Shown here in pieces: positions 19,325-47,519 of a stretch of 49,132 nt of DNA. Positions within the stretch are counted from its first letter, which is position 1. Each line of letters starts with the position of its first letter. This DNA is from a virus, in the IMG/VR virus record IMGVR_UViG_3300006802_013340, positions 1-49,132 of that record; one strand, given 5' to 3'. The notes under the pieces were generated by a model. It ran no database searches and was not told the origin of the DNA. It saw only the letters and a program-made list of their open reading frames with translations. The position numbers and the translations under genes are program-made.

Positions 19325-19334
19325 GGTAAATGGT

Positions 19335-19737
19335 GCAGGTTTTTTGGTGATAAGGGAAACCTGCCAGAAACCTCATCTAGTGCTTACGCTGCTAGAGCAA
19401 ATACCTCATCATTGGCATTTATACTTTTTGCTTCTTCGGCCGAGTAGTCCCAACCCTAACGTCTTTCACATTGACGTGCTGTCCACTCTGTTACTCATTG
19501 CCCTGTCGAAACCAGTACACCCCCATCATAAACATATAGTTTGGATCTTACTATGAGCATTGTTATCTCATTCGCCAGTAGACTATATGCTTATGGTGGA
19601 GGTGGGCGGAATCGAACCGCCGTCCAAGACACCTTTCTCATTGCTTCATACAGCAATAAATTTTGGATCAGATAGCTGGGTTTGCTCGCTCTAGGCATCC
19701 GGTGAAGACGATACATTACTGCTCGTCAGATCCAAAA
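19335..19737 (-). ncRNA. ssrA: permuted two-piece tmRNA (ssrA)
   Basis: On the minus strand the acceptor piece comes first. It ends at 19594 with GGCGGTTCGATTCCGCC (T-arm), acceptor strand CACCTCC, discriminator A and an encoded CCA. After a 69-nt intervening segment the coding piece begins at 19524 with GGGGGTG, which pairs with CACCTCC and gives the G3-U70 wobble that marks alanine identity; CTGGTTTCGACAGGG follows. The tag frame (19416-19384) reads ANDEVFALAA then TAA. TTTTGGATC/GATCCAAAA stems close the acceptor piece and an 8-bp stem (19335-19342 with 19357-19364) ends the coding piece. tmRNA with SmpB rescues stalled ribosomes. The permuted order is known from alphaproteobacteria and some betaproteobacteria and cyanobacteria. 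Exact ends are estimates. Confidence 0.93.
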
Positions 19738-30008: not shown

Positions 30009-30680
30009 CTAACATTCTTGTACGTACTCCGATATCATTGGAAATGCTTCCACGATAGCCTGAGCACAAGCCTTTGCGACTTCAATATGTTCCTTCTGAG
30101 TGCCATTACCAGATCTTAACTCGATGTAATGGATCCACGAACGAATGGTACCATTGACATACAGTCTTGACATCATCAAACCCTCGGGTAACAAAGCTCG
30201 AGCTTGTTCTTTTGCTATCCCTTGTTGAATGGCCCATTCATATTCTTTCTTGCACATATCTGCAATGCGCTTCTGAACATTAAGCCAGTCATCCTGTAAC
30301 TTCTTGTCATCTGTATTTATACTGTTCTGTCGATTTTTCTGATCTTGAAGACGTGCCTCCCGATATACGAATTCCAGATCTTTTGTTGGGTCGGCGTAGC
30401 GTTGGGAAAATTCTTGAAAGGAAAAGGAACGATGTCGTAGTAACTGACGCGCGATGTCTCGAGTGGTTTCGACCTCGATGCAGGCTGAGACCATCTCGAA
30501 GGGAGACCAATGCTTGTGTTTGGCCAAGTATCTGATGAGACCTTCTGCCGTGCCCAAGTTGAGCTGGTTCGAGGGATTGGAAACCCTAGCGCAGAATGAG
30601 ATAAGGTCCTGCGCGTCAACCACCCCATCATCGTACATCTTCCTTGTAGGTTTCGAGACACTGATTAACCGTGCTTTCAT
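30009..30680 (-). CDS. thyX: flavin-dependent thymidylate synthase ThyX
   Basis: 223 aa. The ThyX signature RHRSFSFQEFSQRY is present (RHRxxSxxExSxRY), with ETTRDIARQLLRHRS before it and LPEGLMMSRLYVNGTIRSW near the C-terminus. Makes dTMP from dUMP using methylene-tetrahydrofolate, FAD and NADPH. It overlaps glutaredoxin by 4 bp. Its presence beside a separate ThyA homologue is significant: dTMP supply does not need the latter. Confidence 0.95.
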   Translation of the reverse strand: MKARLISVSKPTRKMYDDGVVDAQDLISFCARVSNPSNQLNLGTAEGLIRYLAKHKHWSPFEMVSACIEVETTRDIARQLLRHRSFSFQEFSQRYADPTKDLEFVYREARLQDQKNRQNSINTDDKKLQDDWLNVQKRIADMCKKEYEWAIQQGIAKEQARALLPEGLMMSRLYVNGTIRSWIHYIELRSGNGTQKEHIEVAKACAQAIVEAFPMISEYVQEC

Positions 30681-32289: not shown

Positions 32290-32593
32290 CTGTTACCTTT
32301 ACTGTACCGTCGTAGACACCCTTTTCGAGGATCGCTGAGAGGATGTCTGATGCGACTGATTGTAGTTCTAAGTTTTCTGGTTTGGCTTCTGGATCAGGAG
32401 AACTATGTACCTTAAACGAGAAGTTTAGTGTATCATTCTCTGTGTTGAAGCTAACAGCTGCATACTGGACCACAGTCTCTACAAAGTATCCAGCCATGAT
32501 CCTTACGCCCCATGCATCTGTATGTTCTGGTAGAGGGACCAACTCGTAGTCAATTCCTTCTACCCATTTACTCAGCGGTATGTACCTGTCCAT
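32270..32593 (-). CDS. 107-aa conserved protein between uvsX and gp41
   Basis: MDRYIPLSKWVEGIDYELVP ... TDAWGVRIMAGYFVETVVQY ... LQSVASDILSAILEKG. Soluble, alpha/beta. Unnamed genes of similar size sit between uvsX and gp41 in T4-like marine phages, so synteny supports it. Possible replication accessory; no motif known. Confidence 0.65.
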   Translation of the reverse strand: MDRYIPLSKWVEGIDYELVPLPEHTDAWGVRIMAGYFVETVVQYAAVSFNTENDTLNFSFKVHSSPDPEAKPENLELQSVASDILSAILEKGVYDGTVKVTDDDAKS

Positions 32594-33614
32594 CTTCAAC
32601 TGCCTTTGTAGTGATTGAGAATCGTTTTGTTAAGTAGTCTTTAAAGTCTGTGCCATCAATTATCGGTTTCCAAAATGCTTCCGATAATGTCTCTTTCTCT
32701 CGTACTCGTCCATCAACGAGCTCACCCGTCGCTCTGTCCACCCTCTGATACCACCCGTTAGAAGGTTTAGCAACGTAACCACCGTCCAAAGCAAGATCAA
32801 GCAGACCAGAGAAACGCTGTACACCGCCCTCCCAGGAAACAGAGATAGGAACCTTAGACTTTTCTTTAACATACCGAGACTTCTCTACGTTGATGATGAA
32901 GTGATAACCCTTGATCTCAGTGCCATCTTTATCTTGTTGACGACCCAAGATCCAGATGTGATCGGCTGAGTAGTAGATACCAGTACCACCAGAGACGATG
33001 TCTTTCGGGTACATCGCGATCTCTTTGTATGTATGGTTAATAGCGATCAAAGGCACATCTTTCATCGCGAGGTAAGGCGTACACATACGGAACAAACCTT
33101 TAAGCGCTTTCGCACGACTCATATCTGCGACTGACTTCTCGTTCATCGCATCTTCGAGTTCTTTCTTTGAAGCCAAGTTACCAACAGAGTCGATCATGAT
33201 GACAACCTTATCACCACGCTCAAGACCATCGAGCTGAGAGATCAAGTCAAACTTCAACTGCTCTACGTCGGTGATAGGAGTATGAAGCACTCGACTCGTA
33301 TCAATGCCAAAGTTTTCAAAGTAAGACTGAGGCGAACCAAACTCTGAGTCATAAAACAATAGCACAGAATCAGGGTACTTCTTTAAGTAAGCACTCGCCA
33401 TGATTAAGCCGAAAGAAGTCTTAAAGTGCTTTGAAGGACCAGCAAGTACAGTTAGACCAGGAGTGAGGCCACCATCCATACTACCAGACAGAGCCACGTT
33501 AATCATCGGCACCTCAGTAGGCACCATGTCTTTTTCATTGAAGAACTTAGACTTAGAAAGCACTTCTGTATGAGCGACCTTCGAGTTCTTCTTTAGTTTG
33601 TCCATTATTCCCAT
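32568..33614 (-). CDS. uvsX: UvsX RecA-like recombinase
   Basis: 348 aa from ATG at 33614 with GAGGATGTGTGT before it. Walker A GPSKHFKTSF at about 60, VLLFYDSEFGSPQSYF, Walker B KVVIMIDSVGNLAS, and loops DMSRAKALKG, SGGTGIYYSADH. Catalyses strand exchange in recombination-dependent replication and repair. Promoter with TGTACA-N17-TATAAT at 33641-33669. Confidence 0.94.
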   Translation of the reverse strand: MGIMDKLKKNSKVAHTEVLSKSKFFNEKDMVPTEVPMINVALSGSMDGGLTPGLTVLAGPSKHFKTSFGLIMASAYLKKYPDSVLLFYDSEFGSPQSYFENFGIDTSRVLHTPITDVEQLKFDLISQLDGLERGDKVVIMIDSVGNLASKKELEDAMNEKSVADMSRAKALKGLFRMCTPYLAMKDVPLIAINHTYKEIAMYPKDIVSGGTGIYYSADHIWILGRQQDKDGTEIKGYHFIINVEKSRYVKEKSKVPISVSWEGGVQRFSGLLDLALDGGYVAKPSNGWYQRVDRATGELVDGRVREKETLSEAFWKPIIDGTDFKDYLTKRFSITTKAVEDGQVHTAE

Positions 33615-33640
33615 ACACACATCCTCATCTGTAAAATGTC

Positions 33641-33669
33641 ATTATACCATAAATGCGTCAAGTTGTACA
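33641..33669 (-). promoter_or_regulatory. uvsX promoter TGTACA-17-TATAAT
   Basis: TGTACA (33664-33669), TATAAT (33641-33646), spacer 17 bp, on the minus strand. The -35 lies inside the 3' end of the upstream gene. Transcript leader about 20 nt, with GAGGA. Confidence 0.78.
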
Positions 33670-34670
33670 CCCTCTTCCTTCTTCACTTCTGTCCATTCTT
33701 TCCCTTGCCAATGGGGATAAGATGCCCTTGAAAGGTGAATTGACTGTGGCTTCTCCATGAATTCAAAATCCAACTCACCTTTTTTATTCTTTAACTTATC
33801 TACCCACTTGAAGACTGGAACATCACTTGACTCAAGCTCGTCCATAAAGTATTGACGTGCATCAGTTCGTTCTTGCCATGACCCATAGAAAGGAGTGCCC
33901 TTATAGTTACCAGTCTTTGGTACCTTTCGGCTTGGATCTTCGATAGGTAGAAGTTCCCATAAAGTCACCTTTGCAGAGTGTTTGTCTGCTAAGAACTCGG
34001 CTGCAGCAGTGTATCGATCAGCAAGATCCTTTGCCGCTTTCTTCACATCGTCATTTCGACACAAGTGATGACGAACGTCGATGTTACCAAAGTAGATCTC
34101 GATCTCTTTATAACTGCCTTCAGGTATGAAATGATCGAATCCCAACTTAATCGCACCATGTAAGGTCTTGAACGGGGTGGAGACGTTCATCCATCCAGGT
34201 CGATACATGCAGATCGCATGACTGTCGCCGATTGAGATCCGATCATAACGCTTGACTAGGTTTGGATCTACAGTCTTCGCTTGCTTTTCGATCTTGCGAA
34301 GATTTTGCCAATCCCAGTCGAATGACATGTTTGCTTTCTTCAAGCGTGCCTCAAACATGTCGCTATATTGAGGAAAGTCGATGATGAGCGACTTCACTTC
34401 ACCATTAAATCGAGACAGAGCACCAACAGTCTCTATGTTTTGATAGTTCTCTATACCGCCAAACAAGTTTAGGTTGCCGCTCCAATCAGAGCCATGATAA
34501 ACATAGACTTCATCGAATGGAGTATAGTCAGTGATCTTCTTACTAGCAAGATTGATCGTGACATCAAGACCAGCGTGCTTTAGCTGATCTGCATAAATGA
34601 TGGCTTGTGCAGCCTTATGCGAATAGATCTTGTCCGATATCGGACCTAGTCCCGTTAATAGTACTTTCAT
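33642..34670 (-). CDS. SGNH-hydrolase-like protein of base-modification block
   Basis: 342 aa from ATG at 34670 with GGTGG 7 nt upstream. Residues 1-120 are Rossmann-like (KVLLTGLGPISDKIYSHKAA). Residues about 145-330 contain SIGDSHAICMYRPGW (Ser in GDS) and IYFGNIDVRHHLCRN (Gly/Asn block), as in SGNH esterases or acyltransferases; a candidate D-x-x-H is not clear. It is transcribed with the PLP-like and two transferase-like genes. Possibly tailors a modified base or small molecule. Confidence 0.5.
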   Translation of the reverse strand: MKVLLTGLGPISDKIYSHKAAQAIIYADQLKHAGLDVTINLASKKITDYTPFDEVYVYHGSDWSGNLNLFGGIENYQNIETVGALSRFNGEVKSLIIDFPQYSDMFEARLKKANMSFDWDWQNLRKIEKQAKTVDPNLVKRYDRISIGDSHAICMYRPGWMNVSTPFKTLHGAIKLGFDHFIPEGSYKEIEIYFGNIDVRHHLCRNDDVKKAAKDLADRYTAAAEFLADKHSAKVTLWELLPIEDPSRKVPKTGNYKGTPFYGSWQERTDARQYFMDELESSDVPVFKWVDKLKNKKGELDFEFMEKPQSIHLSRASYPHWQGKEWTEVKKEEGVQLDAFMV

Positions 34671-35559
34671 CTTTTTTCCACCCACGATATGAATCCACTC
34701 GATCGATGATCGATGGATCTTTCAATATAGGCTCAGTGCCTACGTTCCAAAACAACACGTCCTTACCAGAGTTCTTAGGGATATACCTCCAAGCTTTGCC
34801 ATCATACGTAGCGACCGTAGGGAATGGAGGCATCTCTTCTTCCTTGATCGCTTGTGTGAAAGCTTCTGGCGCAGATATGATGTTGCCATGACCAGTTTCA
34901 CCTTCTTTCAAGTTACGTGCGACAGCAACCGCATGGAAGGTAGCGTTAGGCCATGCAATCTGCAGAGCTCGATGAAGTACACCAGTCGAGATCACTGTCC
35001 AGACTTCTTCTGGTTCAGGGATCTGAGATGCAACCTTTACGAAACCTGCAGTCACGAGTTCATGCTTCAAACCAAGCGGGATGAAAGCATGTCCTTCATG
35101 TTCTTCTGCGTATCGTTTAGCGATAGCATTTAAGTTGGGCATTGCAGCGATACGATGGAACTCCACTTCAGCTCCACGTTCAATACAACATGCCTGATGA
35201 TGCGAGATCTTTTGGCTGCTTGGCATGAACAGCTTGACCTTCTTATTATGTCTCTTTGCCACATCTAAGATAGACACACCAGCTAGACCAGTACGAGGCT
35301 GAACATATACGAGTGTCTCTTCTTTGATACGAGAGATGAGGCAGTCACCACCTCGAACCTTTGAACCGGTAAGTAAGTCATCACGTACGACTCGAACACC
35401 TTCATAAGTCTCTACGACAGGCGGTGGGTTTGGATCTTCCCAATCACCAGCAAGGTTCAAGTAATACTCGCGAGCATCATGACGAGTGTAGACACCTTCC
35501 ATCAAAAGGTTGTCTACGTCTTTGTTACGATGGTCAATGATATGCTTGTCGTGCGACAT
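34615..35559 (-). CDS. PLP-dependent-enzyme-like protein
   Basis: 314 aa. SRIKEETLVYVQPRTGLAG followed by SILDVAKRHNKKVKLFMPSS and GLKHELVTAGFVKVAS resembles fold-type-II PLP enzymes (ACC deaminase/cysteine desulfhydrase-like), where a Gly-rich loop binds phosphate and a Lys forms the Schiff base; I cannot name the Lys with confidence. In phages with hypermodified thymine, PLP enzymes process the attached amino acid, and two transferase-like genes lie just upstream here. Assignment is tentative. Confidence 0.5.
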   Translation of the reverse strand: MSHDKHIIDHRNKDVDNLLMEGVYTRHDAREYYLNLAGDWEDPNPPPVVETYEGVRVVRDDLLTGSKVRGGDCLISRIKEETLVYVQPRTGLAGVSILDVAKRHNKKVKLFMPSSQKISHHQACCIERGAEVEFHRIAAMPNLNAIAKRYAEEHEGHAFIPLGLKHELVTAGFVKVASQIPEPEEVWTVISTGVLHRALQIAWPNATFHAVAVARNLKEGETGHGNIISAPEAFTQAIKEEEMPPFPTVATYDGKAWRYIPKNSGKDVLFWNVGTEPILKDPSIIDRVDSYRGWKKDESTINGTRSDIGQDLFA

Positions 35560-36538
35560 CTTTTTTCAGGCTAAATTCATTAGGAAAGATCCAATCATAC
35601 GGGATACGTTTAGTCGGTCTCTTTACTCCGTGAGTGATGGCGATATGCTTATAGAAGAAACACGTCTTGTCTTCTAAGTTGAGCCACATTTGTTCTTTGA
35701 TTGGATTCTTTGGATGATTCGCTAGCTTCTGCATCTGCTCAACCCACATTATACCATAACCATTCGTAGGTGTAAACTTGCCTCTCTCGTCTAACTCGTA
35801 CTTTACTTTGCCCATCAGATTCTTACCACCAAAGATCTGGTGTAGACCATCAAAGTGACCAGTGCCACCAAACAGTACAGAGTTTGGATCACAGATGTGA
35901 GGATATGCCATCGCGATATAACGTGCAAAGTTCTTGCATGGATACATCGGGTTGCGAAAGCCTTGGTTCTTTGCAAAGTAACCAGCCATCTCTTTTGCCA
36001 ACTCCATCATTGTCCATGGTCTATCCTTACGAGTGAGGATATGATGCATATCATCAGCAGCTTTCTTCGGGCCATCGATGATCCATTGCTTTACGTTTGT
36101 ATCTTTTGGATAGTAGATCTGAAACAGGTCATTACGAGCATGACGCTGAGTCTCGAACCTCTTTTGTAGTCCTTCGTCTCCATGTTCAAGGAGAGTGGTG
36201 AAAGTTTTCCAGTGTTCATTCGTAAAGCTAAAGACGAGTGTGTACCACATACGCTTATGGTCGTCTTTTACTTCTTTCATCACGTCACAGAACGGGTGTT
36301 CATGCCAATGCAAACGATGAGAGAAGATTTGATAGTCTTCTTTGAGTAAGAGGTCTTCACGTTTATCGAACTTATCACAGAACTCAAAGAACTTTTCAAA
36401 GCGTTGTTCCTGTGTCCAGCTCGACATCCACGAATCTTTTGGCTTGCCTTTAAAGTTGACCTCTACGAGGTCAGTGTTCGGGTACACAATGTTACGAGAT
36501 GTGTCCTCAATGAAATGACTTAGTGTAGCGTTTTGCAT
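35534..36538 (-). CDS. aGPT-Pplase-like protein A (candidate DNA base-modification transferase)
   Basis: 334 aa, largely helical. MWYTLVFSFTNEHWKTFTTL near 95, PWTMMELAKEMAGYFAKN, PCKNFARYIAMAYP and GGTGHFDGLHQIFGGKN resemble the glycosylase-fold alpha-glutamyl/putrescinyl-thymine pyrophosphorylase group (amino acid:DNA transferases), but I recognise only the general layout. It overlaps neighbours on both sides and has an internal early-type promoter at 35748-35776. Alternative: an unrelated helical protein. Confidence 0.4.
   Translation of the reverse strand: MQNATLSHFIEDTSRNIVYPNTDLVEVNFKGKPKDSWMSSWTQEQRFEKFFEFCDKFDKREDLLLKEDYQIFSHRLHWHEHPFCDVMKEVKDDHKRMWYTLVFSFTNEHWKTFTTLLEHGDEGLQKRFETQRHARNDLFQIYYPKDTNVKQWIIDGPKKAADDMHHILTRKDRPWTMMELAKEMAGYFAKNQGFRNPMYPCKNFARYIAMAYPHICDPNSVLFGGTGHFDGLHQIFGGKNLMGKVKYELDERGKFTPTNGYGIMWVEQMQKLANHPKNPIKEQMWLNLEDKTCFFYKHIAITHGVKRPTKRIPYDWIFPNEFSLKKDVARQAYH
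35748..35776 (-). promoter_or_regulatory. internal promoter TTTACA-17-TATAAT
   Basis: TTTACA (35771-35776) and TATAAT (35748-35753), 17 bp apart, inside the coding sequence of protein A. The PLP-like gene starts 190 nt downstream, so this may allow its separate expression. The match could be chance, but the spacing and the GG before the -10 are as in the other promoters. Confidence 0.5.
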
Positions 36539-37686
36539 AGTTCTTTATACTTATCAACTGTCATATCACACTGCTTTAAGATCGTGTCGTCTGAAGGATG
36601 ATGCTTTAGGTTATTAAACGTACTCACTAGACCAAGCTCAAGCATTGCCTTTTGTCGACCAAACGGATGATCTTTGATACGAGATGATGACCATACTTCA
36701 TCTAAGTTGATATGAGAGTAGTGTGCACCAGGACGTACATAGTTCTCAACCCATCGGATAAAGTCACAGCATACATCTTCAGCATTATATGGATATGCAC
36801 CAGTGTCTTCGTATATCTTCATCATCACTGCATCAAGGAACTCTTCCTTCTTCATCTTCTGAGTCGGCTTGGCAAGGTACGAGATACACTCAACTGCGTT
36901 TGTTCCATAGTAGAACGGTGATTCTTTATTTACGTATGCAGGATACCAGTCAGCGATGTCTGCAACGACTGCCGCATATTGAAAGATATATCGACGTAGG
37001 CCGTTTCTTTCGTTCCACTGACCCATCCACTCACCTACTTCACGCAGGTCCTTCTTCTTATCTGAAGACTGTAGCCACTCAGCAAGTTCTCTTGCCAGTC
37101 GTGGTGCATACTCGCCTAAGTAGTAGTCACCACCCTTCTTATAGTCTCCTTGCGGCTTAGGAAATGCAGGGAACTGATAGCCGACAGAAGTATAGAATGG
37201 TTCACGATGCTTCTTCATGTACCATACCATCTCTTCGATCGTACGTGCTTTATGTAGTACGAACAGCAGCGTGTTATGATAACCTGATGGCTTGGTCGCA
37301 TAGTTGATCGCAGATCCAGTCACACGATGTAAGATGAAGAGGTACAACCATTCAGGTAAGTCAAAGTCTTTATGCTTACCAGTCCAGTTATTTGCAACGA
37401 CTTCACGCTGTTGAGTGACCTTGCCTGCTCTCATCTTCTCCCAATATGGATGTCCATAGCTCCATCCATAAAAGCAGTCATTCACGATCTGAGAGAAACC
37501 AGCATACTTACGTTCCACCACATCATACAGCTCGATGTTCTCCATCAAGTCGTCGTTCATGTTAGACTCGAGGTGCGGGATCATGCCATAAGGAGCAGTA
37601 TCACTTACGTTGCATTTTTTCTGTTGATCAAGCGCCATGTTATAATAGCGCAAGTATTCATCATAATACTGTGTGGTTTCTATCAT
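36520..37686 (-). CDS. aGPT-Pplase-like protein B (candidate DNA base-modification transferase)
   Basis: 388 aa helical protein. LPEWLYLFILHRVTGSAINY, YMKKHREPFYTSVGYQFPAF, ERNGLRRYIFQYAAVVAD and NAEDVCCDFIRWVENYV fit the layout of amino acid:DNA transferases, whose helices hold a DNA-glycosylase-like fold. It precedes protein A in the same transcript and overlaps the UDG-like gene by 26 bp. If correct, the pair would attach an amino group donor to a hydroxymethylated pyrimidine. Needs profile searches to confirm. Confidence 0.4.
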   Translation of the reverse strand: MIETTQYYDEYLRYYNMALDQQKKCNVSDTAPYGMIPHLESNMNDDLMENIELYDVVERKYAGFSQIVNDCFYGWSYGHPYWEKMRAGKVTQQREVVANNWTGKHKDFDLPEWLYLFILHRVTGSAINYATKPSGYHNTLLFVLHKARTIEEMVWYMKKHREPFYTSVGYQFPAFPKPQGDYKKGGDYYLGEYAPRLARELAEWLQSSDKKKDLREVGEWMGQWNERNGLRRYIFQYAAVVADIADWYPAYVNKESPFYYGTNAVECISYLAKPTQKMKKEEFLDAVMMKIYEDTGAYPYNAEDVCCDFIRWVENYVRPGAHYSHINLDEVWSSSRIKDHPFGRQKAMLELGLVSTFNNLKHHPSDDTILKQCDMTVDKYKELCKTLH

Positions 37687-38137
37687 ACAAATATTGTTTC
37701 AGCGACTCTAACATCGCGAGCTCATAGTCTTTGCTGTTCAAGTTTCGATTGCGGGGAGAAGGATGGTCAATCTTGTAAGTATCTATCGAATACTTCTTAC
37801 ATGCACGTTCTACAAACCCGCCAAGGGAGATGACTACTTTTTTGTCTTGTACTGCAATAATTAGTGCAGTCTTATCAACGTCTTTCAAGTCATAAGAGTT
37901 GATCTTATGTGGGATCACGTTATGAAAGTCCCAGGCCTCTACACCAACATAGTCCATCCACTTCTTGAGCCGAGCAAACGTACCGTTGACCGATGGTGTA
38001 GTCTTGCTCGAAGGACATTGACCAAGTACGATGATGTCAGAGTTCGTATCATGACCAGGCAAGAAGTCTAAGACGTCTCTACCTTTACGCCCGCTTCCTC
38101 GAGTAATTCTTTCGCTTCTTTGCATGACTCTTGCCAC
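37661..38137 (-). CDS. uracil-DNA-glycosylase-superfamily protein
   Basis: Up to 158 aa; start is uncertain because the frame overlaps the dCMP deaminase by 70 bp (a TTG at 38062 is an alternative). IIVLGQCPSSKTT is the first UDG motif and IDHPSPRNRN the second, as in UDG families 4/5-like, with VVISLGGFVERACK between. Family members remove uracil, or in some phages other bases. Near dCMP deaminase it might guard against dUMP incorporation or act on modified bases. Confidence 0.65.
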   Translation of the reverse strand: MARVMQRSERITRGSGRKGRDVLDFLPGHDTNSDIIVLGQCPSSKTTPSVNGTFARLKKWMDYVGVEAWDFHNVIPHKINSYDLKDVDKTALIIAVQDKKVVISLGGFVERACKKYSIDTYKIDHPSPRNRNLNSKDYELAMLESLKQYLYDRNHTVL

Positions 38138-38550
38138 TTTTCAGGTACCTCCATCTTTGCAGTCACTACTTTCTTGATGCCAACTTGAATCACACCCTTT
38201 GCACATTCAAGACAAACTGGCAATCCAGAAACATACAGCGTTGAACCGTCAAGCGATACTCCGTTATAAGTGGCATTATAGATGGCGTTCATCTCAGCGT
38301 GAACGATGAACTTATACTTTGTGGCTCGATCATCAAGCCTTTCAGTAGTATCCTGGATACCACGAGGAAATCCGTTATAGCCTTGTGATAGTACTTGCCC
38401 TTTGTTGCCTATTACTACTGCACCGACTTTGGTGGATGGATCTTTTGACCAAGAAGAGATGTCTTTGGCAAGTCGTAAGTATCGACCATCCCATTTTTCA
38501 TCGTTCGACGGTTGGTAAGTCTGAGGCGAACCAAAATATAAGTCAATCAT
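38068..38550 (-). CDS. dCMP deaminase
   Basis: 160 aa from ATG at 38550 (8-bp overlap with the ThyA-like gene); an earlier in-frame ATG gives 176 aa. Zinc site HAE in FIVHAEMNAIYNA with LPVCLECAK (C-x2-C), plus DPSTKVGAVVIGNKGQVLSQ, define the deoxycytidylate deaminase family. Produces dUMP for ThyX. Allosteric control by dCTP/dTTP is usual in the family and not judged here. Confidence 0.88.
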   Translation of the reverse strand: MIDLYFGSPQTYQPSNDEKWDGRYLRLAKDISSWSKDPSTKVGAVVIGNKGQVLSQGYNGFPRGIQDTTERLDDRATKYKFIVHAEMNAIYNATYNGVSLDGSTLYVSGLPVCLECAKGVIQVGIKKVVTAKMEVPEKWQESCKEAKELLEEAGVKVETS

Positions 38551-39427
38551 AAAATTCCCGATTAGGTCTCCAATTAAAGTCATCAGAAGATATGCCATTC
38601 ACACTGAACTTGATCTCTTTGTAATGATCTGCATCCCACGTCTTACTACCTTTCGCTCCTCCCGATTGCAATGGCATGTTACGATCAGTATCATAATAAT
38701 AGTGCGAATGCTCTTCAGCGTCTTTCTCTCCTTCGACTAGATGGAAATGACGTTCATACACATGAAGGTTTTGAACTTGCCAATAGATGTCGCCGAGTTG
38801 AAGCTCAGGCTCATATTGAAAACGTTCATCATCTTTTGATAGCCTTACTTCATTCAGGTCATCAAGTAAGTGCTGAAGTACAAATCCTTGCCACGCATAG
38901 TCATTCTTATAACCAAACACAACGTCATTCGAACGCATCTGTACCACACAGTTAAGTTTATTGTCTCTAATATAGTATGTCACTGAGTTAGTACAGATGA
39001 AGTCATTCTTACCATCTTCATTGTATTCAACCCAGATCGAAGGACGAGTATAGATCATCGATGCACGACGAGAGTCTGGATTATTACGCAGCTCATTAAA
39101 GACTTGCTCGTACTGTTCGTAGTACTTCTTTGAGAGGATCAGATGACCATAGTTAGAGTTGATTTCTCCATATTGGTTTGCTGTGGCTTGCCATGCCGCA
39201 GGAATTTTTTCACCACCAATATCATTAACGTTGGTCGACTGGTTCATGTACCAGTCAATCTCGCGATCGATATATTCTTGGTTAGGTGTACCAAAGATGG
39301 CAGGTTCTGTGGCTTTGAAGCATGCACCTAACAACTCAATGGTCTTTGCACCAGTGCGGTCGATGGTAAACTTCTGATCTTTCAGAGCTTGCTTGAAGTG
39401 TTTACGGATGTCAGTTACGTTTTGCAT
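38543..39427 (-). CDS. ThyA-family pyrimidine hydroxymethylase (dCMP-type)
   Basis: 294 aa with the thymidylate-synthase fold. NNPDSRRASMIY matches the ThyA ELRDNPDSRR segment. The catalytic Cys is C145 in DFICTNSVTYYI (ThyA has PCH). In QMRSNDVVFGYKNDYAW, E. coli Asn177 aligns with Asp176. Asp at this site is what distinguishes dCMP hydroxymethylase (T4 gp42, Asp179) from dUMP-specific enzymes. Since ThyX is also encoded, this enzyme probably makes 5-hydroxymethyl-dCMP rather than dTMP. The ATG lies 6 nt after the -10 box. Confidence 0.75.
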   Translation of the reverse strand: MQNVTDIRKHFKQALKDQKFTIDRTGAKTIELLGACFKATEPAIFGTPNQEYIDREIDWYMNQSTNVNDIGGEKIPAAWQATANQYGEINSNYGHLILSKKYYEQYEQVFNELRNNPDSRRASMIYTRPSIWVEYNEDGKNDFICTNSVTYYIRDNKLNCVVQMRSNDVVFGYKNDYAWQGFVLQHLLDDLNEVRLSKDDERFQYEPELQLGDIYWQVQNLHVYERHFHLVEGEKDAEEHSHYYYDTDRNMPLQSGGAKGSKTWDADHYKEIKFSVNGISSDDFNWRPNREFYD

Positions 39428-39433
39428 GTTGAT

Positions 39434-39462
39434 ATTATACCATAGATGTTAGCGCATGTACA
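39434..39462 (-). promoter_or_regulatory. ThyA-like gene promoter TGTACA-17-TATAAT
   Basis: TGTACA (39457-39462), TATAAT (39434-39439), 17-bp spacer. The -35 is inside the end of the UDP-glucose dehydrogenase gene. The ATG at 39427 is 6 nt past the -10, so the transcript would be leaderless. Confidence 0.78.
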
Positions 39463-40258
39463 CAATCTTTTGATCTTTTTCCCGATCATCAAGGTCATAC
39501 CCAGCCCTAACCTTATTATTCGCCTCAATGGCGGAGTTCAAAACTGTTAGATGTTCACTAAAGTTAACAAAAGCCTGAGTATCTTTGGGGAAACAGGCTC
39601 CACCAAATCCCATCTTACCATCAAATCCAGGAACTTTCGTATGACCTCGGCCGATCCGTGGATCAGCACCTACAGCGTTTACGATATGATTAAAGTTGTA
39701 GCCATTATCCAAACACATCTGATAGATCTGGTTGAAGAATGTAACTTTCGTGGCAAGGAACGAGTTGATCGTGTACTTGACGACAGATGCTTCTTCAAGA
39801 GATAGCTTATAAGATGGGCACGGGTTACATAAGCTATACTGATGATAGTAACGTTCAAGTTGGTTGACAGAGTGCACTTCGCCTCCAAAGATATGGAAAG
39901 GCGGGTCGATAAACTGCTCTGCTGCAGACTTCTCTGTCAAGAACTCTGGATTATAGACGATCGTCGAGTTACGATATTCGCGAAGCACATGAGGAGGAAC
40001 CGTCGACTTGATCGCGACAGATCCGAACTTCATGAAGCCTCGTTGCCTGAGCTCATCCATCACCGATCGGAAGATCGTGAAGTCTTCGTAGGGTGTCGGC
40101 ACACAGATGAAGATCAGCTCAGTGTCTAAGTCGATGTCTTTGACCGATGTGTTATATTTTGGATCAATGAGCTGCTTCTTCACAGAAGGATGACTAAAGC
40201 CATAGTCTACAGCTTTGCCCACAAAGCCATGGCCGATGATAGCAAGTTTAAACTTCAT
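39449..40258 (-). CDS. UDP-glucose/GDP-mannose dehydrogenase family protein (short)
   Basis: 269 aa from ATG at 40258. NAD site AIIGHGFVGKAV, IFICVPTP, substrate motif VVYNPEFLTEKSAAEQFI-like, KYTINSFLATKVTFFNQI, and catalytic Cys in GFGGACFPKDT. The family oxidises UDP-glucose to UDP-glucuronate (or GDP-mannose). It is about 120-150 aa shorter than usual and lacks the C-terminal nucleotide-sugar domain, so activity may be altered. Paired with the epimerase it could supply an activated pentose or uronic acid for glycosylating DNA. Confidence 0.85.
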   Translation of the reverse strand: MKFKLAIIGHGFVGKAVDYGFSHPSVKKQLIDPKYNTSVKDIDLDTELIFICVPTPYEDFTIFRSVMDELRQRGFMKFGSVAIKSTVPPHVLREYRNSTIVYNPEFLTEKSAAEQFIDPPFHIFGGEVHSVNQLERYYHQYSLCNPCPSYKLSLEEASVVKYTINSFLATKVTFFNQIYQMCLDNGYNFNHIVNAVGADPRIGRGHTKVPGFDGKMGFGGACFPKDTQAFVNFSEHLTVLNSAIEANNKVRAGYDLDDREKDQKIVYMR

Positions 40259-40958
40259 TGAGGAAATCATTTACAGTAACCTTACAGCGCCAACCCATGG
40301 CTTCGAGGAGCTCAATGTCCTTTTTGTTAGCACATGTACGTAGTCTTTCATAAGGTTGACCTTCCTTTACTGGTAAGTGAGGAGCGATCGATGATACCTT
40401 GACAGGTTTGCCAGTACCGATATCGATTGGACCTCTATGCGTTGAATAGAGTAGAAGGTGGATCGCTTCTACGACGTCAGTGATATGTATAAAATCTCTT
40501 TCATGATCTGTCACAAACTCGAGTACACCGCGTTGTAACTTATCAAAGAACATACCGGGGCGGGCAGGATTACTGTACACGGTATGGAATCGCATGAAGC
40601 ACACGTTAGTATGAGGGATACTCTCGATCACATGCTTTGATGCTGCATAGGGATTTAAGTGTGGTTCATACTGAGAGCTAGACCCCGCAACAAGGACACG
40701 TGAGTTAGGATAAGAAGCTAAGATTCTCTTCGTGCCTTCAACGTTGTTCATCCAATACTTTTTCGGGTCTTCAATGCTTGGTAACACTCCAGCATTAGCA
40801 GCGAGATGAATCACCCAGTCAGCACGCGGTAGCTCGCAAGTAAGGATGTCGTTTCCTTCCTTGATGTCCAAACCAATGACCTGATGGCCTTTACGTTTTA
40901 ATGTCTTGCAAAGCTCTGAGCCAATAAAGCCTGCTGAACCAGTGACTACGATCTTCAT
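40248..40958 (-). CDS. NAD-dependent epimerase/dehydratase (short SDR)
   Basis: 236 aa extended-type SDR. VTGSAGFIGSEL is the NAD motif, VIHLAANAGVLPSIEDP follows, and NPYAASKHVIE contains Y-x3-K. RDFIHITDVVEAI and PIDIGTGKPVKVSSIA are usual epimerase blocks. The C-terminal substrate domain is short. With the UDP-glucose dehydrogenase it could act as UDP-glucuronate decarboxylase or epimerase, the route to UDP-xylose or arabinose in phages that sugar-modify hydroxymethyl-cytosine. Inference from the pair. Confidence 0.82.
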   Translation of the reverse strand: MKIVVTGSAGFIGSELCKTLKRKGHQVIGLDIKEGNDILTCELPRADWVIHLAANAGVLPSIEDPKKYWMNNVEGTKRILASYPNSRVLVAGSSSQYEPHLNPYAASKHVIESIPHTNVCFMRFHTVYSNPARPGMFFDKLQRGVLEFVTDHERDFIHITDVVEAIHLLLYSTHRGPIDIGTGKPVKVSSIAPHLPVKEGQPYERLRTCANKKDIELLEAMGWRCKVTVNDFLNEV

Positions 40959-41299
40959 TCTTCTGCTTTCTTCGCTTTACGATTTAAGAAGTCACGTGTA
41001 GGATCTTGACCGTCGATACCTTTACGACACCATGCAACAACGAAAGATGCATAGTTGATTAGGTCTTTGGCAGAATCTTCGAGCGATTCAAAGTTAGGCT
41101 CATAGTTCGGATCATGTTCCATCGCTTCAATGACAGACCACATACGAAGGGTCTTGGCATTGATGAGGTCCATGAGCGATGCTACACCACGAGGATAGTA
41201 GTCAGCTTGACGAACACGTGAGTTTTCGTTCTGATAATCACGAGACTTTTTCTGTTGGACTTCTGCACATTCTTGCAGCACTTTAAGGGATTCACGCAT
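40955..41299 (-). CDS. DUF1599 (Nmad1-type) protein
   Basis: 114 aa from ATG at 41299 with GGAGG 8 nt upstream. KKSRDYQNENSRVRQADYYP, SLMDLINAKTLRMWSVIE and DLINYASFVVAW are the DUF1599 family core, called nucleotide-modification-associated domain 1 from its frequent neighbours. Its presence among modification-type genes supports a modified-base hypothesis. A TATAAT lies at 41319-41324 but without the usual -35. Confidence 0.75.
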   Translation of the reverse strand: MRESLKVLQECAEVQQKKSRDYQNENSRVRQADYYPRGVASLMDLINAKTLRMWSVIEAMEHDPNYEPNFESLEDSAKDLINYASFVVAWCRKGIDGQDPTRDFLNRKAKKAEE

Positions 41300-41807
41300 A
41301 TTCTTTACCTCCAAACTCATTATACCACATCTTATTCACACACTCCCAATTATTTTTCTCGTCTGACCATTGATAAAAACCGTGGCACGTGTACTCATCA
41401 TAATAACGAGTGAATAGTATGACATGGTCAGCAATCTTTTGCCTCCACTGTACACGTCTGCGCCAAAGCTTGGTGAAGGTATCTCTGATCCTTTGGTTCA
41501 TAGCTGACACTCCGCCATAGGTACTGACAGTCTTCACTTCGACATGGAAACCATCTGGGTGCAAGACGTCCATGTACTTCTCATCAAAGTTAGTATAACC
41601 TTTATGCTCAGTCAACCAGTGTTCTGCTACGAGACCATCACGAGTGTTCTTCAACACGATCTCAGGATCACGCCTTTCACTGATAGGTTTTTTGAGTTCG
41701 CCTTCAAGGAACATAACGTATTCTGCTTGCGCATGATCTTCGAGCGCTATCTTATCTACGTCATCAATGGTAAAGACATCACCGAGGCGTACTTTATAAT
41801 CAATCAT
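41292..41807 (-). CDS. PD-(D/E)XK nuclease-like protein
   Basis: 171 aa. LVAEHWLTEHKGYTNFDE then MDVLHPDGFHVEVKTVST: D ... E-V-K is the PD-(D/E)XK core with its preceding acidic residue; ADHVILFTRYYDEYTCHGF gives later strands. Similar to restriction-endonuclease-like proteins of T4-like marine phages. Target unknown; perhaps degrades host DNA while phage DNA is protected by modified bases. Confidence 0.7.
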   Translation of the reverse strand: MIDYKVRLGDVFTIDDVDKIALEDHAQAEYVMFLEGELKKPISERRDPEIVLKNTRDGLVAEHWLTEHKGYTNFDEKYMDVLHPDGFHVEVKTVSTYGGVSAMNQRIRDTFTKLWRRRVQWRQKIADHVILFTRYYDEYTCHGFYQWSDEKNNWECVNKMWYNEFGGKEYA

Positions 41808-42736
41808 ATCATATTCCTATAAACGTATTCAAGTGCCCGATCTGCTTCCTTGTTCATCGGACGATTCTCATACCAATTACCCGTATCTATGTCAAACTCG
41901 CGACACATGTTCGTGATCTCGTTTGATGTGATAGGATACTGGTTCTTCACCGCTTTGCTTGCAACCGCTACCATGATCTGATACATCTTATGATACCATC
42001 CAGTGTTATTAATGGTCTGATACTCAGACGCTAGCTTTTTTGGCCAGAAAGGGCAGTCTCTGTAGCCTGACCACTGAAACGATGTATTTTCAAGTTGAGA
42101 TTTTCTGTGCTCGACGATCTGTCTTTGCCATTCGTCAGGCAGTCGGTCGATGAAGCTACCTGCATCTGACTTTGAGTTGTACTCCCACTTAGAACAAAGA
42201 AAATCAACATCAAGAAAATCGCCAGCGTTAGTAAAGAAGAAGTTGTAAGCGCCAGCATAGCTCGCAGGGATGTAATACATTCTGCTGAGATCCTTAGTCT
42301 GTCGATCTCCGATGGCGCCAAGCTCTGAGTTGAGTGCCCACCAGAAATGCTTGATTTGATCTTGCTGTACTGCTCGAGTAAGTGGAAAGACAAGCCTGAA
42401 CTTCGGGCGTGACTCCGTGCTGCTAGCAGTACTATAACAAACATAACGCCACTTACCATACCGAGTACGTAGCTCATCTTCTAGGTCTCCTTCAAATACA
42501 TGATCGTCAACGTCGACTGCAGCCCAACCACTCCACTCTACCACATTCTTATTTGCACGAGTAGTGCCTTCTAAGTATGTAGCAGGTGAGATCAGATAAG
42601 CATCTTTCTTCGATGCACATGGCTTTTGAGACAACGCACGAAGCGCCATCTCAAACTGATCGAAAGACTCGAACTGAAGTGAGTTATGAGTCTTATTGTC
42701 GAATACACCTTTAAAACGCGTCAGAGAGATTACCAT
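41804..42736 (-). CDS. primase-polymerase-like (AEP) protein
   Basis: 310 aa. GWAAVDVDDHVFEGDLED gives the D-x-D pair, then YVCYSTASSTESRPKFRLVF (S-x-x-S-x2-R/K) and PLTRAVQQDQIKHFWW, a layout of archaeo-eukaryotic primase-like domains found in phages and plasmids. FWPKKLASEYQTIN and the helical tail are unassigned. It could prime or initiate replication. I saw no Toprim-type gp61 primase in the window. Confidence 0.55.
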   Translation of the reverse strand: MVISLTRFKGVFDNKTHNSLQFESFDQFEMALRALSQKPCASKKDAYLISPATYLEGTTRANKNVVEWSGWAAVDVDDHVFEGDLEDELRTRYGKWRYVCYSTASSTESRPKFRLVFPLTRAVQQDQIKHFWWALNSELGAIGDRQTKDLSRMYYIPASYAGAYNFFFTNAGDFLDVDFLCSKWEYNSKSDAGSFIDRLPDEWQRQIVEHRKSQLENTSFQWSGYRDCPFWPKKLASEYQTINNTGWYHKMYQIMVAVASKAVKNQYPITSNEITNMCREFDIDTGNWYENRPMNKEADRALEYVYRNMI

Positions 42737-43118
42737 GATTGTCCTTATGGCTTGGTGCGATCCAACCTTCTGGTTTGATCAAGTCGGGTAGACCAAGTGG
42801 ATTAGGACGAGAAGGCTTTACGCCTACTTCTTTGTTCATGTTTGCACGATGCACTTCGCGCCATGCTTTGTCGCCATCAACACCAAATGCTTCGAGAGTG
42901 CCGATCGCGATAACGCAGATGTCGATCAAACCATCGATGATCTCTTCTGCATCTTTCTCACGATAAGCTTTCTGAGTTTCTTCATACTCTTCTTTGAGGA
43001 AGTTCATGCGAAACTCAAGAAACTTTTTCAGTTGCTCAGGTGTTGCGTTGTGAATCCATTGAGATACACCGTACTTACCGTGCATCTGTCTCATATCTGT
43101 AAACCAAGTTTTCATAAT
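42711..43118 (-). CDS. mazG: MazG-like nucleotide pyrophosphohydrolase
   Basis: 135 aa from ATG at 43118 with AAAGGAAAAATT before it. EFRMNFLKEEYEETQKAY then EEIIDGLIDICVIAIG gives the EExxE ... ExxD metal site of all-alpha NTP pyrophosphatases; the tail GLPDLIKPEGWIAPSH matches phage MazG proteins. Such phage enzymes remove non-canonical dNTPs or adjust nucleotide pools or (p)ppGpp-like signals. Promoter at 43137-43165. Confidence 0.85.
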   Translation of the reverse strand: MMKTWFTDMRQMHGKYGVSQWIHNATPEQLKKFLEFRMNFLKEEYEETQKAYREKDAEEIIDGLIDICVIAIGTLEAFGVDGDKAWREVHRANMNKEVGVKPSRPNPLGLPDLIKPEGWIAPSHKDNHGNLSDAF

Positions 43119-43136
43119 TTTTCCTTTCGCATGCTC

Positions 43137-43165
43137 ATTATACCACAACCCGGGGCCCATGTACA
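43137..43165 (-). promoter_or_regulatory. mazG promoter TGTACA-17-TATAAT
   Basis: TGTACA (43160-43165), TATAAT (43137-43142), 17-bp spacer with GGGCCCCGGG. Leader of about 12 nt with AAAGG before the ATG. It lies 14 nt past the end of the DNA polymerase gene. Confidence 0.78.
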
Positions 43166-43178
43166 TGTAGTACTAAAG

Positions 43179-45701: not shown

Positions 45702-45730
45702 ATTATACCATACTTTCAAGGTGGTGTAAA
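45702..45730 (-). promoter_or_regulatory. gp43 promoter TTTACA-17-TATAAT
   Basis: TTTACA (45725-45730), TATAAT (45702-45707), 17-bp spacer. The -35 overlaps the end of the radical SAM gene. The -10 ends 6 nt before the polymerase ATG. Confidence 0.78.
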
Positions 45731-46933
45731 CTGATCGATCAATAGATCCTCGTCTATCTTTCCCTTCTTATATGAATTATTTTGATGCACGAGCCAACCT
45801 ATGATCTCATGTCGACGGATTGGTTTAGTTCCTATCATATCTCTTAAAACGATCAAGTAGTCCATCACGTCTTTCTTCGTGATGTTACACATCGCACCTT
45901 CAACTCTATCGATACACTGATCGATCACTGCTCTATGCTTGATGTCTAACCCGTTCAATGCAAGAGTTGAAGGTTGACTTACCCAATTCCATGTGTTAAA
46001 CATGATCTTCTTATAAGGGTTTAATCGTTCTGCAGAAGATATGACATAGTCGATGAAGTTATAAGTGTCTTTGATCGTGAACACGTTTGGCGACATGGAT
46101 ATGCGAATCATGCTTATCTCGTCTAGTATGAGTAGACGTTCATAGTTCTTTTTCCATACTTCCCAATCAGAACCGTATCTGACGTTCTCTGACACTGCGC
46201 CTGTCGACTCGTTTGATAAGCAATATAACCACTTCCAGCGAGTCGTTTGCTTTACTTCTTCTTCTATATTATACCATACTTTGTCAGTAAATGAGCCATT
46301 AGATGTGATGTCAATGATGAGCTCGCTATTACGAATGACGTCGTCTTCGATCATCTTTGACTTAAAGACTTCCCAGCCTTTACTGATGGTAGGCTCTCCG
46401 CCCAATACGCAAATATGTTTTAGGACTTCAGGCTCTTGCTGACAAAGGTCTCTGATCCAATCGATGATAACATCCATATCATCTTCTCGGTACTTATCGT
46501 AAGGAGCAATGCCACGCTCTTGCGCGTGTAGACTGCTGAACTTTTCATTACAGTATAAGCAGCTATGGTTACACGTGTTTTCAAAGTACAACTTGATGTA
46601 TCTAGCGTACTGCTTCTTATTTTCTGGATCAGCTACTTTTATTTCAAGCTTAGGCCAACTCTTACGAGTTCGAAAGCTTGTACCAGTCTCATTCTCTTGC
46701 TGCCAACATTGATTGCAGGCAGGATGTCTCCAGTTATTCAGCGCGTAGTTACGTCTATCATCGATGATGTTGTTACTACGAATCCACTCTTTTGTAAGAG
46801 GGTCTGGGAACTTATGAGATGTAGTGGTCCTACAACAGTACTTGATCTCGCGGCGATGGAAGTATAACTCGATGTCTTCCCAATGTAGACTACAGAAAGT
46901 CTGTGGCGAGTAATTTAGGGAGTGGATCTTCAT
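45716..46933 (-). CDS. radical SAM enzyme
   Basis: 405 aa from ATG at 46933; the earlier ATG at 46966 overlaps the upstream gene more and has no better signal. The [4Fe-4S] motif is C121-x3-C125-x2-C128 ([16 protein letters not shown]), followed by [17 protein letters not shown] and IDITSNGS (SAM-binding blocks). An N-terminal Cys group (CC ... CNQC) suggests an auxiliary cluster. Such phage proteins are often named only radical SAM. Possible link to base or lipid tailoring; substrate unknown. Confidence 0.82.
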
Positions 46934-47519
46934 GGAAGCGATATGATATACTGATCCTGACTTCATTAGTCGTGTTATTGATCTTATGCGGGGTTGAAGT
47001 ATTAAGTAAAACTGGATATTTTAGGTTATAGCTATCAATAAGTTTTGCTTTACTTAAATCTGGAGGTACCAGCCTAGGACGATCTAAGCCATCTGATTGG
47101 CGAAGTTCTTCCCACCATCCTTCTCCACAATCGTAAATGTTTACGGGAGTTTTTATATAATTTTTGATACCAATGTTAATAACGTTTTCGTGAGGAACTT
47201 CAGTAGCAACGCGTGTTATATCAAGTCTACGATCGTGGCGTGTAGGACGGACATAAGTGTCGTCGGTCGGATATGTTGTTTTATTAAAGTCAACATGTAT
47301 CTGGCTAGATATACCAGAATAGTTAACAAAAATTAGAGCTTGAAATGGAAAGAACCCTCTAGCATTGAACCACTTCTTCAATGACTGAGGATAATGAACG
47401 CTATTCATCTGTACAACTTGTTGAGCTAACAAGTATTTACTTTCGTCGTATGCTTTCAGTACATTAGCTCGTACCTCATCTACGATAGCAGTAGGGATAT
47501 TTAGCTGCCGAAAAAACAT
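46890..47519 (-). CDS. 2OG-Fe(II) dioxygenase-like protein
   Basis: 209 aa. H75-x-D77 (SSQIHVDFNK), distal H178 (NTSTPHKINN) and R188 (EVRISISYRF) give the 2OG-Fe(II) set, and NINIGIKNY-like and PVLLNTS strands agree with an AspH-like fold. Overlaps its upstream neighbour by 19 bp. It lies outside the lipid run. Confidence 0.6.
   Translation of the reverse strand: MFFRQLNIPTAIVDEVRANVLKAYDESKYLLAQQVVQMNSVHYPQSLKKWFNARGFFPFQALIFVNYSGISSQIHVDFNKTTYPTDDTYVRPTRHDRRLDITRVATEVPHENVINIGIKNYIKTPVNIYDCGEGWWEELRQSDGLDRPRLVPPDLSKAKLIDSYNLKYPVLLNTSTPHKINNTTNEVRISISYRFHEDPLPKLLATDFL

Follow-up and report, generated by a model that had tools for sequence, protein, structure and literature searches.

A T4-like phage gene cassette proposed to decorate 5-hydroxymethylcytosine with an amino acid independently of a DNA kinase

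To our knowledge, the amino-acid hypermodification of DNA has so far been found for thymine only, where it proceeds via a 5-hydroxymethyluracil (5hmU) DNA kinase. Amino acid:DNA transferases attach amino acids on the activated 5hmU. 5hmU in DNA is substituted in the thymidine pathway after a 5-hydroxymethyldeoxyuridine (5-hmdU) DNA kinase has phosphorylated it (PMC6449724), and a mutant of phage PhiW-14 accumulates a pyrophosphoryl intermediate (PMC5977210). The cassette of phages M6 and SN1 consists of a pyrimidine hydroxymethylase, Nmad5, aGPT-PPlase1, a nucleotide kinase, a radical SAM protein, a pyridoxal phosphate (PLP) enzyme and aGPT-PPlase2 (PMC9476957). In profile comparisons, M6 gp51 corresponds to PF18724, gp54 to PF18748 and gp55 to PF18723, and gp48 resembles uracil-DNA glycosylase (UDG). 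Here we examine a block of four genes in the IMG/VR virus record IMGVR_UViG_3300006802_013340, a stretch of 49,132 bases with T4-type replication genes (hereafter, the window); the block encodes two helical proteins, HelA and HelB, a PLP enzyme and an SGNH protein. We assign a probability of about 0.6 to the reading that it represents a cassette of T4-like phages for the kinase-independent, amino-acid-based hypermodification of 5-hydroxymethylcytosine (5hmC).

All four overlapping minus-strand open reading frames (ORFs) delineated in the initial annotation are present and are located, as it had placed them, upstream of uvsX in the direction of transcription (Table 1): the order is HelA, HelB, PLP enzyme, SGNH protein, then uvsX, and adjacent ORFs of the block overlap by 19-71 bp. 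These ORFs are not due to chance, given that IMG/VR contains relatives with 50-80% identity that form the same cluster. HelA, HelB or the SGNH protein served as bait in the searches of viral contigs, which makes all co-occurrence counts conditional on the presence of one member; two profile scans yielded at least 563 and at least 564 confirmed relatives, respectively. Among the 73 loci of at least 13 kb, HelA and the PLP enzyme are present in all 73, the SGNH protein in 72 and HelB in 55, and the common neighbors are thymidylate synthase (TS) family genes (58 loci), PRA-PH (57), DUF1599-like genes (56) and dCMP deaminase (47). The gene order is variable, with at least five arrangements (A-B-PLP-SGNH, A-PLP-SGNH, A-B-SGNH-PLP, SGNH-A-B-PLP and B-SGNH-PLP-A), and in all 139 IMG/VR loci that contain HelA, the PLP enzyme and the SGNH protein, these genes are on one strand, in a block of at most 5.9 kb. 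A scan of bacterial genomes with HelA detected six contigs binned into metagenome-assembled genomes, which carry the same cassette; scans for promoters and terminators gave results at the chance level. Because the members of the block keep company despite the shuffled gene order, they probably belong to a shared pathway. Linkage, homology and predicted folds thus jointly favor the base-hypermodification cassette that had been proposed at the outset.

The block resembles the thymidine cassettes of phages M6, SN1, ViI, PhiW-14 and SP10 in that a hydroxymethylase, a PLP enzyme and two helical enzymes are clustered and accompanied by a UDG-like gene; furthermore, M6 gp52 is a homolog of the PLP enzyme, and HelA is predicted to share the transferase/kinase-helical fold. 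The differences are that the hydroxymethylase is of the dCMP type, whereas theirs is of the dUMP type, that no 5-hmdU kinase was found and no M6-type radical SAM gene is present in the loci, that the helical proteins are beyond the Pfam profiles, and that a protein combining the N-terminal part of the T4 beta-glucosyltransferase (BGT) with an SGNH domain is added. Of the additions relative to the thymidine pathway, only this BGT-N/SGNH protein is constant in the cassette.

The PLP enzyme matches PHROG 7093, annotated as 'threonine dehydratase' (E 1e-38), and M6 gp52 aligns with it over its length (HHalign E 2e-12). Lys67, within a GSKxRG motif, is invariant in its relatives (102/102) and is likely to be the Schiff-base lysine. 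The family profile also matches cysteine synthases in the Protein Data Bank (PDB; E 5e-5), and given these matches together with the invariant lysine, we assign the protein to fold type II. The early identification of a PLP enzyme from an M6-type pathway is thereby upheld by PHROG 7093, the gp52 alignment and Lys67. The proposed role of the enzyme is the trimming of an attached amino acid. PLP domains of the M6 gp52 type were also detected in Erythrobacter phage R6L, within an 810-aa frame annotated as 'DNA modification methylase' (L027:10873-13304), and in Microcystis phage Mae-JY30, beside two ParB/sulfiredoxin-like genes (L028:9992-10702).

The AlphaFold2 (AF2) model of the SGNH protein is of high quality (pLDDT 93, pTM 0.90), and its residues 140-327 superpose on SGNH esterases from the PDB with Z scores of up to 13.8 over 166 residues; the matches include the peptidoglycan O-acetyltransferase PatB as well as sialate and xylan esterases. 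The protein contains a GDSH motif, and Ser155 and His317 do not vary among 115 sequences. Its description as SGNH-like, originally made by inspection of the letters, is confirmed by the model and the PDB matches. An alignment pairs residues 5-118 with T4 BGT residues 1-116 (HHalign E 1e-9, probability 96%), compared to E values of 0.087 or worse for twelve unrelated families and a reversed control, and a match to phrog_7922 was also counted toward BGT homology. The UDP-glucose-binding C-terminal Rossmann domain of BGT was not found, and the SGNH fold takes its place. In the 11 large cassette genomes (127-168 kb), the BGT family PF09198 gave sub-threshold matches in 9 and a true match in none, and the match in one of them (G013) falls in the SGNH gene. 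Thus, the SGNH protein is a chimera, with an N-terminal part that profile alignment identifies as BGT-homologous and a remainder that is modeled as an SGNH acylesterase or acyltransferase, and we propose that it acts on the 5-CH2OH group of hydroxymethylcytosine in DNA.

Homologs of this chimera are encoded by Aeromonas phages that possess a gp42-type hydroxymethylase and have no PF09198 BGT. In phage 44RR2.8t, ORF233c (L029:4995-7382) is a fusion that joins a BGT-N/SGNH half to a C-terminal half matching HMUDK_hel weakly (E 9e-4), and in phage 25, the homolog, ORF225c, stands alone; the two proteins are jointly assigned to PHROG 17781 and 13881. ORF233c, from a cultured T4-like phage, is a candidate for an undescribed 5hmC modification. 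The solitary gene of phage 25, combined with the presence of O-acetyltransferases such as PatB among SGNH folds, is the basis of the strongest alternative to the proposed pathway, namely that the SGNH protein alone makes O-acyl-5hmC, whereas HelA, HelB and the PLP enzyme perform a second, independent modification of the same or another base. We consider this unlikely because the SGNH gene of the marine loci is almost never seen apart from the PLP enzyme and HelA (72 of the 73 long loci) and because the fusion in 44RR ties SGNH to helical functions.

The identity of the modified base is indicated by the hydroxymethylase gene next to the block. The residues C148, R168, S169, D171, D179, H216 and Y218 of T4 gp42 are all conserved in the TS-family protein of the window, Lys28 being the only compared active-site residue that is not. 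Asp179 is the pyrimidine-determining residue of the T4 dCMP hydroxymethylase (PMC6841964); it is present in all 66 readable relatives of the hydroxymethylase and in all five further loci retrieved by tblastn with T4 gp42, whereas the corresponding residue is Ala in M6 and Ile in PhiW-14. The 11 large cassette genomes each encode one TS-family protein, which is also the case for the window. The block is located within 3 kb of the hydroxymethylase in 90/90 loci that have it and within 3 kb of uvsX in 67/67. In the window, the order is dnaB-p109-uvsX-SGNH-PLP-HelB-HelA-UDG-deaminase-42, followed by the polymerase, so that compared with the T4 order 41-40-uvsX-b-gt-42-43, the block fills the b-gt position, as it does in divergent loci. 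The similarity to T4 b-gt therefore includes the homologous N-terminal part of about 115 residues, the place between uvsX and gene 42, and the gp42-type hydroxymethylase nearby; the difference is that an SGNH domain replaces the UDP-glucose-binding half and that PLP and helical enzymes are added. Given the residue set of a dCMP hydroxymethylase, the BGT-derived N-terminal half and the b-gt locus, we infer with strong confidence that the decorated base is 5hmC in DNA.

Decoration of 5hmC is known from other phages as well. The families PF00303, PF01503, PF00383 and PF14437 co-occur with a 5hmC carbamoyltransferase on experimentally modified contigs (PMC8670742), and the same set, namely TS, PRA-PH, dCMP deaminase and MafB19 deaminase, is found among the neighbors in the window. 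Both the phages with this carbamoyltransferase (identified by MetaGPA) and those with arabinosyl-5hmC, such as RB69 (PMC6024577), decorate 5hmC further with an enzyme whose gene lies near those of a dCMP hydroxymethylase and a dCMP deaminase; by contrast, the block encodes other enzyme classes, an amino-acid-type rather than a carbamoyl or sugar product would be expected, and no carbamoyltransferase was found among the cassette genes. In the open-access literature, we found neither a report of amino-acid-modified cytosine nor a nucleoside analysis of phages with this cassette.

The 5-hmdU kinase family PF18748, which is detected in M6 as a positive control, was found in none of the 11 large cassette genomes, contigs whose completeness is not established. 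A Walker-A scan of one of these genomes (G011, 164 kb) revealed replication-type and PhoH-like ATPases only and no small P-loop kinase; one other genome contains a 134-aa kinase-like ORF. Hence, the absence of a 5-hmdU kinase noted in the initial annotation extends from the window to the large genomes, and the possibility of new chemistry that it had raised gains from this absence and from the dCMP-type hydroxymethylase. Its thymine target, in contrast, is not supported, since the dCMP residue set of the sole TS-family protein, the BGT N-terminal half and the b-gt locus point to 5hmC. With a dUMP-type hydroxymethylase and a 5-hmdU kinase both looked for and neither found, the block does not appear to be a member of the thymidine pathway. 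The window also encodes ThyX (30009-30680; PF02511 E 1e-41), near the TS homolog of the dCMP hydroxymethylase type; a separate supply of dTMP by ThyX is in line with this homolog not making dTMP.

If the block carried out thymidine hypermodification of the M6, ViI and PhiW-14 kind, decorating 5hmU with an amino acid while the kinase is missing or unrecognized, this would account for the PLP enzyme of the M6 gp52 family, the two helical proteins and the UDG-like protein, the last as in M6; 5hm-dUMP could come from another enzyme, with ThyX supplying dTMP. This scenario nevertheless appears improbable given that the only TS-family protein carries the dCMP residue set, which differs from those of M6 and PhiW-14, that each of the 11 genomes has one TS-family gene and no PF18748 kinase, and that a BGT-type domain and the b-gt locus are involved.

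The amino acid would be attached by the helical proteins, and here the evidence is largely structural. A search of the BFVD database with the AF2 model of HelA (pLDDT 75.6, pTM 0.78) using Foldseek yielded a 65%-identical protein named 'Amino acid:DNA transferase domain-containing' in UniProt and a second protein so named with 16% identity; the amino acid:DNA transferase domain protein A0A6J5L8T5 matches the model with E 4e-40, and the helical proteins of 5-hmdU kinases from PhiW-14 (C9DG43) and SP10 (F8WQ30) match it with probability 1.00. Among PDB entries, the model resembles AGOG-type 8-oxoguanine DNA glycosylases, with Z scores of 7-8, as well as DUF2419, an enzyme of queuosine salvage (Z 8.4). 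The predicted fold of HelA is thus that of the amino acid:DNA transferase/5-hmdU-kinase-helical superfamily, with a HhH-glycosylase-like core, and we propose that HelA transfers an amino acid to modified cytosine in DNA. HelB, which is linked to the transferase fold solely via its profile similarity to HelA (HHalign E 1.5e-4 to 2.8e-4; controls at or above 0.023), is by this comparison a distant HelA paralog that is absent from about a quarter of the long cassette loci; in reciprocal searches with hidden Markov models, each family finds the other as the next-best group, over the same region. No homologs of HelA or HelB were found by tblastn in named phages, and a sequence search of solved structures with HelA, HelB and the SGNH protein gave chance matches or none. 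It is quite unlikely that the target of the block is not phage DNA but a base in tRNA, the nucleotide pool or a host glycan, as might be suggested by the DUF2419 match, by the sialate and xylan esterases, given that glycans are frequent substrates of SGNH enzymes, and by the two sugar genes at 39449-40958, because those genes are rare in the long loci (UDP-glucose dehydrogenase in 1/73, epimerase in 4/73), where hydroxymethylase, dCMP deaminase and PRA-PH are common, and because the BGT-N homology points to DNA and the hydroxymethylase lies within 3 kb wherever it is present.

For the proposed 5hmC pathway, homology and gene company make the attachment of an amino acid to 5hmC a suggestion of moderate confidence; the activation by an ester and the order of the steps are weak conjectures. 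In the following sequence of events, which is tentative as a whole and more doubtful than the pathway itself, no kinase would be required. The gp42-type dCMP hydroxymethylase would supply 5hm-dCMP, with 5hmC entering DNA during replication, and the SGNH protein would dock on 5hmC in duplex DNA through its BGT-derived front half. The SGNH half, with Ser155 and His317, would form or handle an ester on the 5-CH2OH group, replacing the role of the 5-hmdU DNA kinase, and HelA, aided by HelB where present, would swap the ester for an amino acid at the 5-methylene through its transferase fold. Finally, the PLP enzyme of the M6 gp52 type could trim the amino acid, for instance by decarboxylation, to a positively charged amine, and the genome modified in this way would be shielded from restriction.

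Several observations weigh against an amino-acid hypermodification of 5hmC by this cassette. The profiles PF18724 (ADDT), PF18723 (HMUDK_hel) and PF18746 (aGPT-Pplase3) gave no match at E <= 1 to HelA and 15 relatives or to HelB and 11 relatives, with PF18724 detecting M6 gp51 and PF18723 detecting M6 gp55 as positive controls; HHalign comparisons of HelA and HelB with the gp51 and gp55 alignments gave no signal, the gp51 and gp55 families also missing each other. Thus, of the two helical transferase-like proteins initially announced, the predicted fold of HelA and the profile link of HelB stand, and membership in the three Pfam families does not. The HelA model is moderately confident, its structural match to PhiW-14 is weak (TM 0.37-0.42, E 4e-3), and the Z score of the PDB glycosylases (8) falls in the range of helical coincidences and is unsafe alone for a helical protein. 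The counterpart of Asp100 of T4 BGT, which we take to be its catalytic residue, is Asp103 of the SGNH protein, and Asp occupies this position in only 95 of 113 relatives. A T4 gp1-type kinase converting 5hm-dCMP to 5hm-dCTP was looked for and not found, and the kinase counts come from contigs of the uncertain completeness mentioned above. Finally, no homologs of the PLP enzyme or HelA were found in Aeromonas phages 25 and 44RR, and the SGNH protein may have a job of its own, given these phages.

The DUF1599 and UDG-like proteins reported near the block are sub-threshold in the window and better supported in relatives (Table 1). Upstream of the block there are also a DNA polymerase and two nucleotide-sugar genes, namely those of an epimerase and of a UDP-glucose dehydrogenase whose N-terminal domain is incomplete, both adjoining the hydroxymethylase; these two were considered as core parts of the cassette and rejected on the counts given above.

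Table 1. Genes of the block and of its surroundings in the window
Feature	Coordinates	Strand	Description and evidence
HelA	36520..37686	-	388 aa helical protein; AF2 model, Foldseek matches, no Pfam match
HelB	35534..36538	-	334 aa, diverged HelA paralog; HHalign, reciprocal HMM
PLP enzyme	34615..35559	-	314 aa, fold type II, M6 gp52 / PHROG 7093 family
SGNH protein	33642..34685	-	347 aa; BGT-N, residues ~5-118, and SGNH fold, ~140-327
uvsX	32568..33620	-	marks the T4-type 41-40-uvsX-(b-gt)-42-43 locus
dCMP hydroxymethylase (T4 gp42-like)	38543..39427	-	PF00303 E 5e-17
dCMP deaminase	38068..38598	-	PF00383 E 6e-20; <3 kb from block in 81/81 loci having it
UDG-superfamily-like protein	37661..38137	-	PF03167 E 0.0024, sub-threshold; HHalign with M6 gp48 E 1e-4
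DUF1599/Nmad1-like	40955..41320	-	PF07659 E 0.13 in window; L002 relative E 4e-7
PRA-PH/MazG-type nucleotide pyrophosphohydrolase	42711..43166	-	PF01503 E 7e-11

Several other features of the window deserve mention. A radical SAM protein (45716-46966; PF04055 E 6e-9) is encoded upstream of the polymerase, with relatives in 6/73 long loci; M6-type cassettes hold a radical SAM isomerase. Between 5509 and 22094, there are six fatty-acid desaturase genes (PF00487, E 1e-11 to 7e-17), a striking number for one phage fragment, interleaved with genes for TauD-type and other 2OG-Fe(II)-oxygenase-like proteins, a ketoacyl synthase, a Rieske protein and GNAT-like proteins; this cluster looks like a phage-borne lipid or small-molecule modification system. 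A transfer-messenger RNA (tmRNA) on the minus strand (19327-19707) matches the Rfam family RF04321 of permuted tmRNA (E 1.6e-25) and betaproteobacterial tmRNA, with the tag ANDEVFALAA according to ARAGORN.

If the proposed pathway is correct, amino-acid hypermodification would be extended from thymine to cytosine, and a second activation chemistry would be suggested. It would explain how hydroxymethylated DNA is protected in T4-like phages that lack glucosyltransferases. Many aquatic T4-like phages that have not been cultivated would then have an undescribed base in their genomes. Part of the scheme is directly testable because relatives occur in the culturable Aeromonas phages 44RR, 25 and 31.

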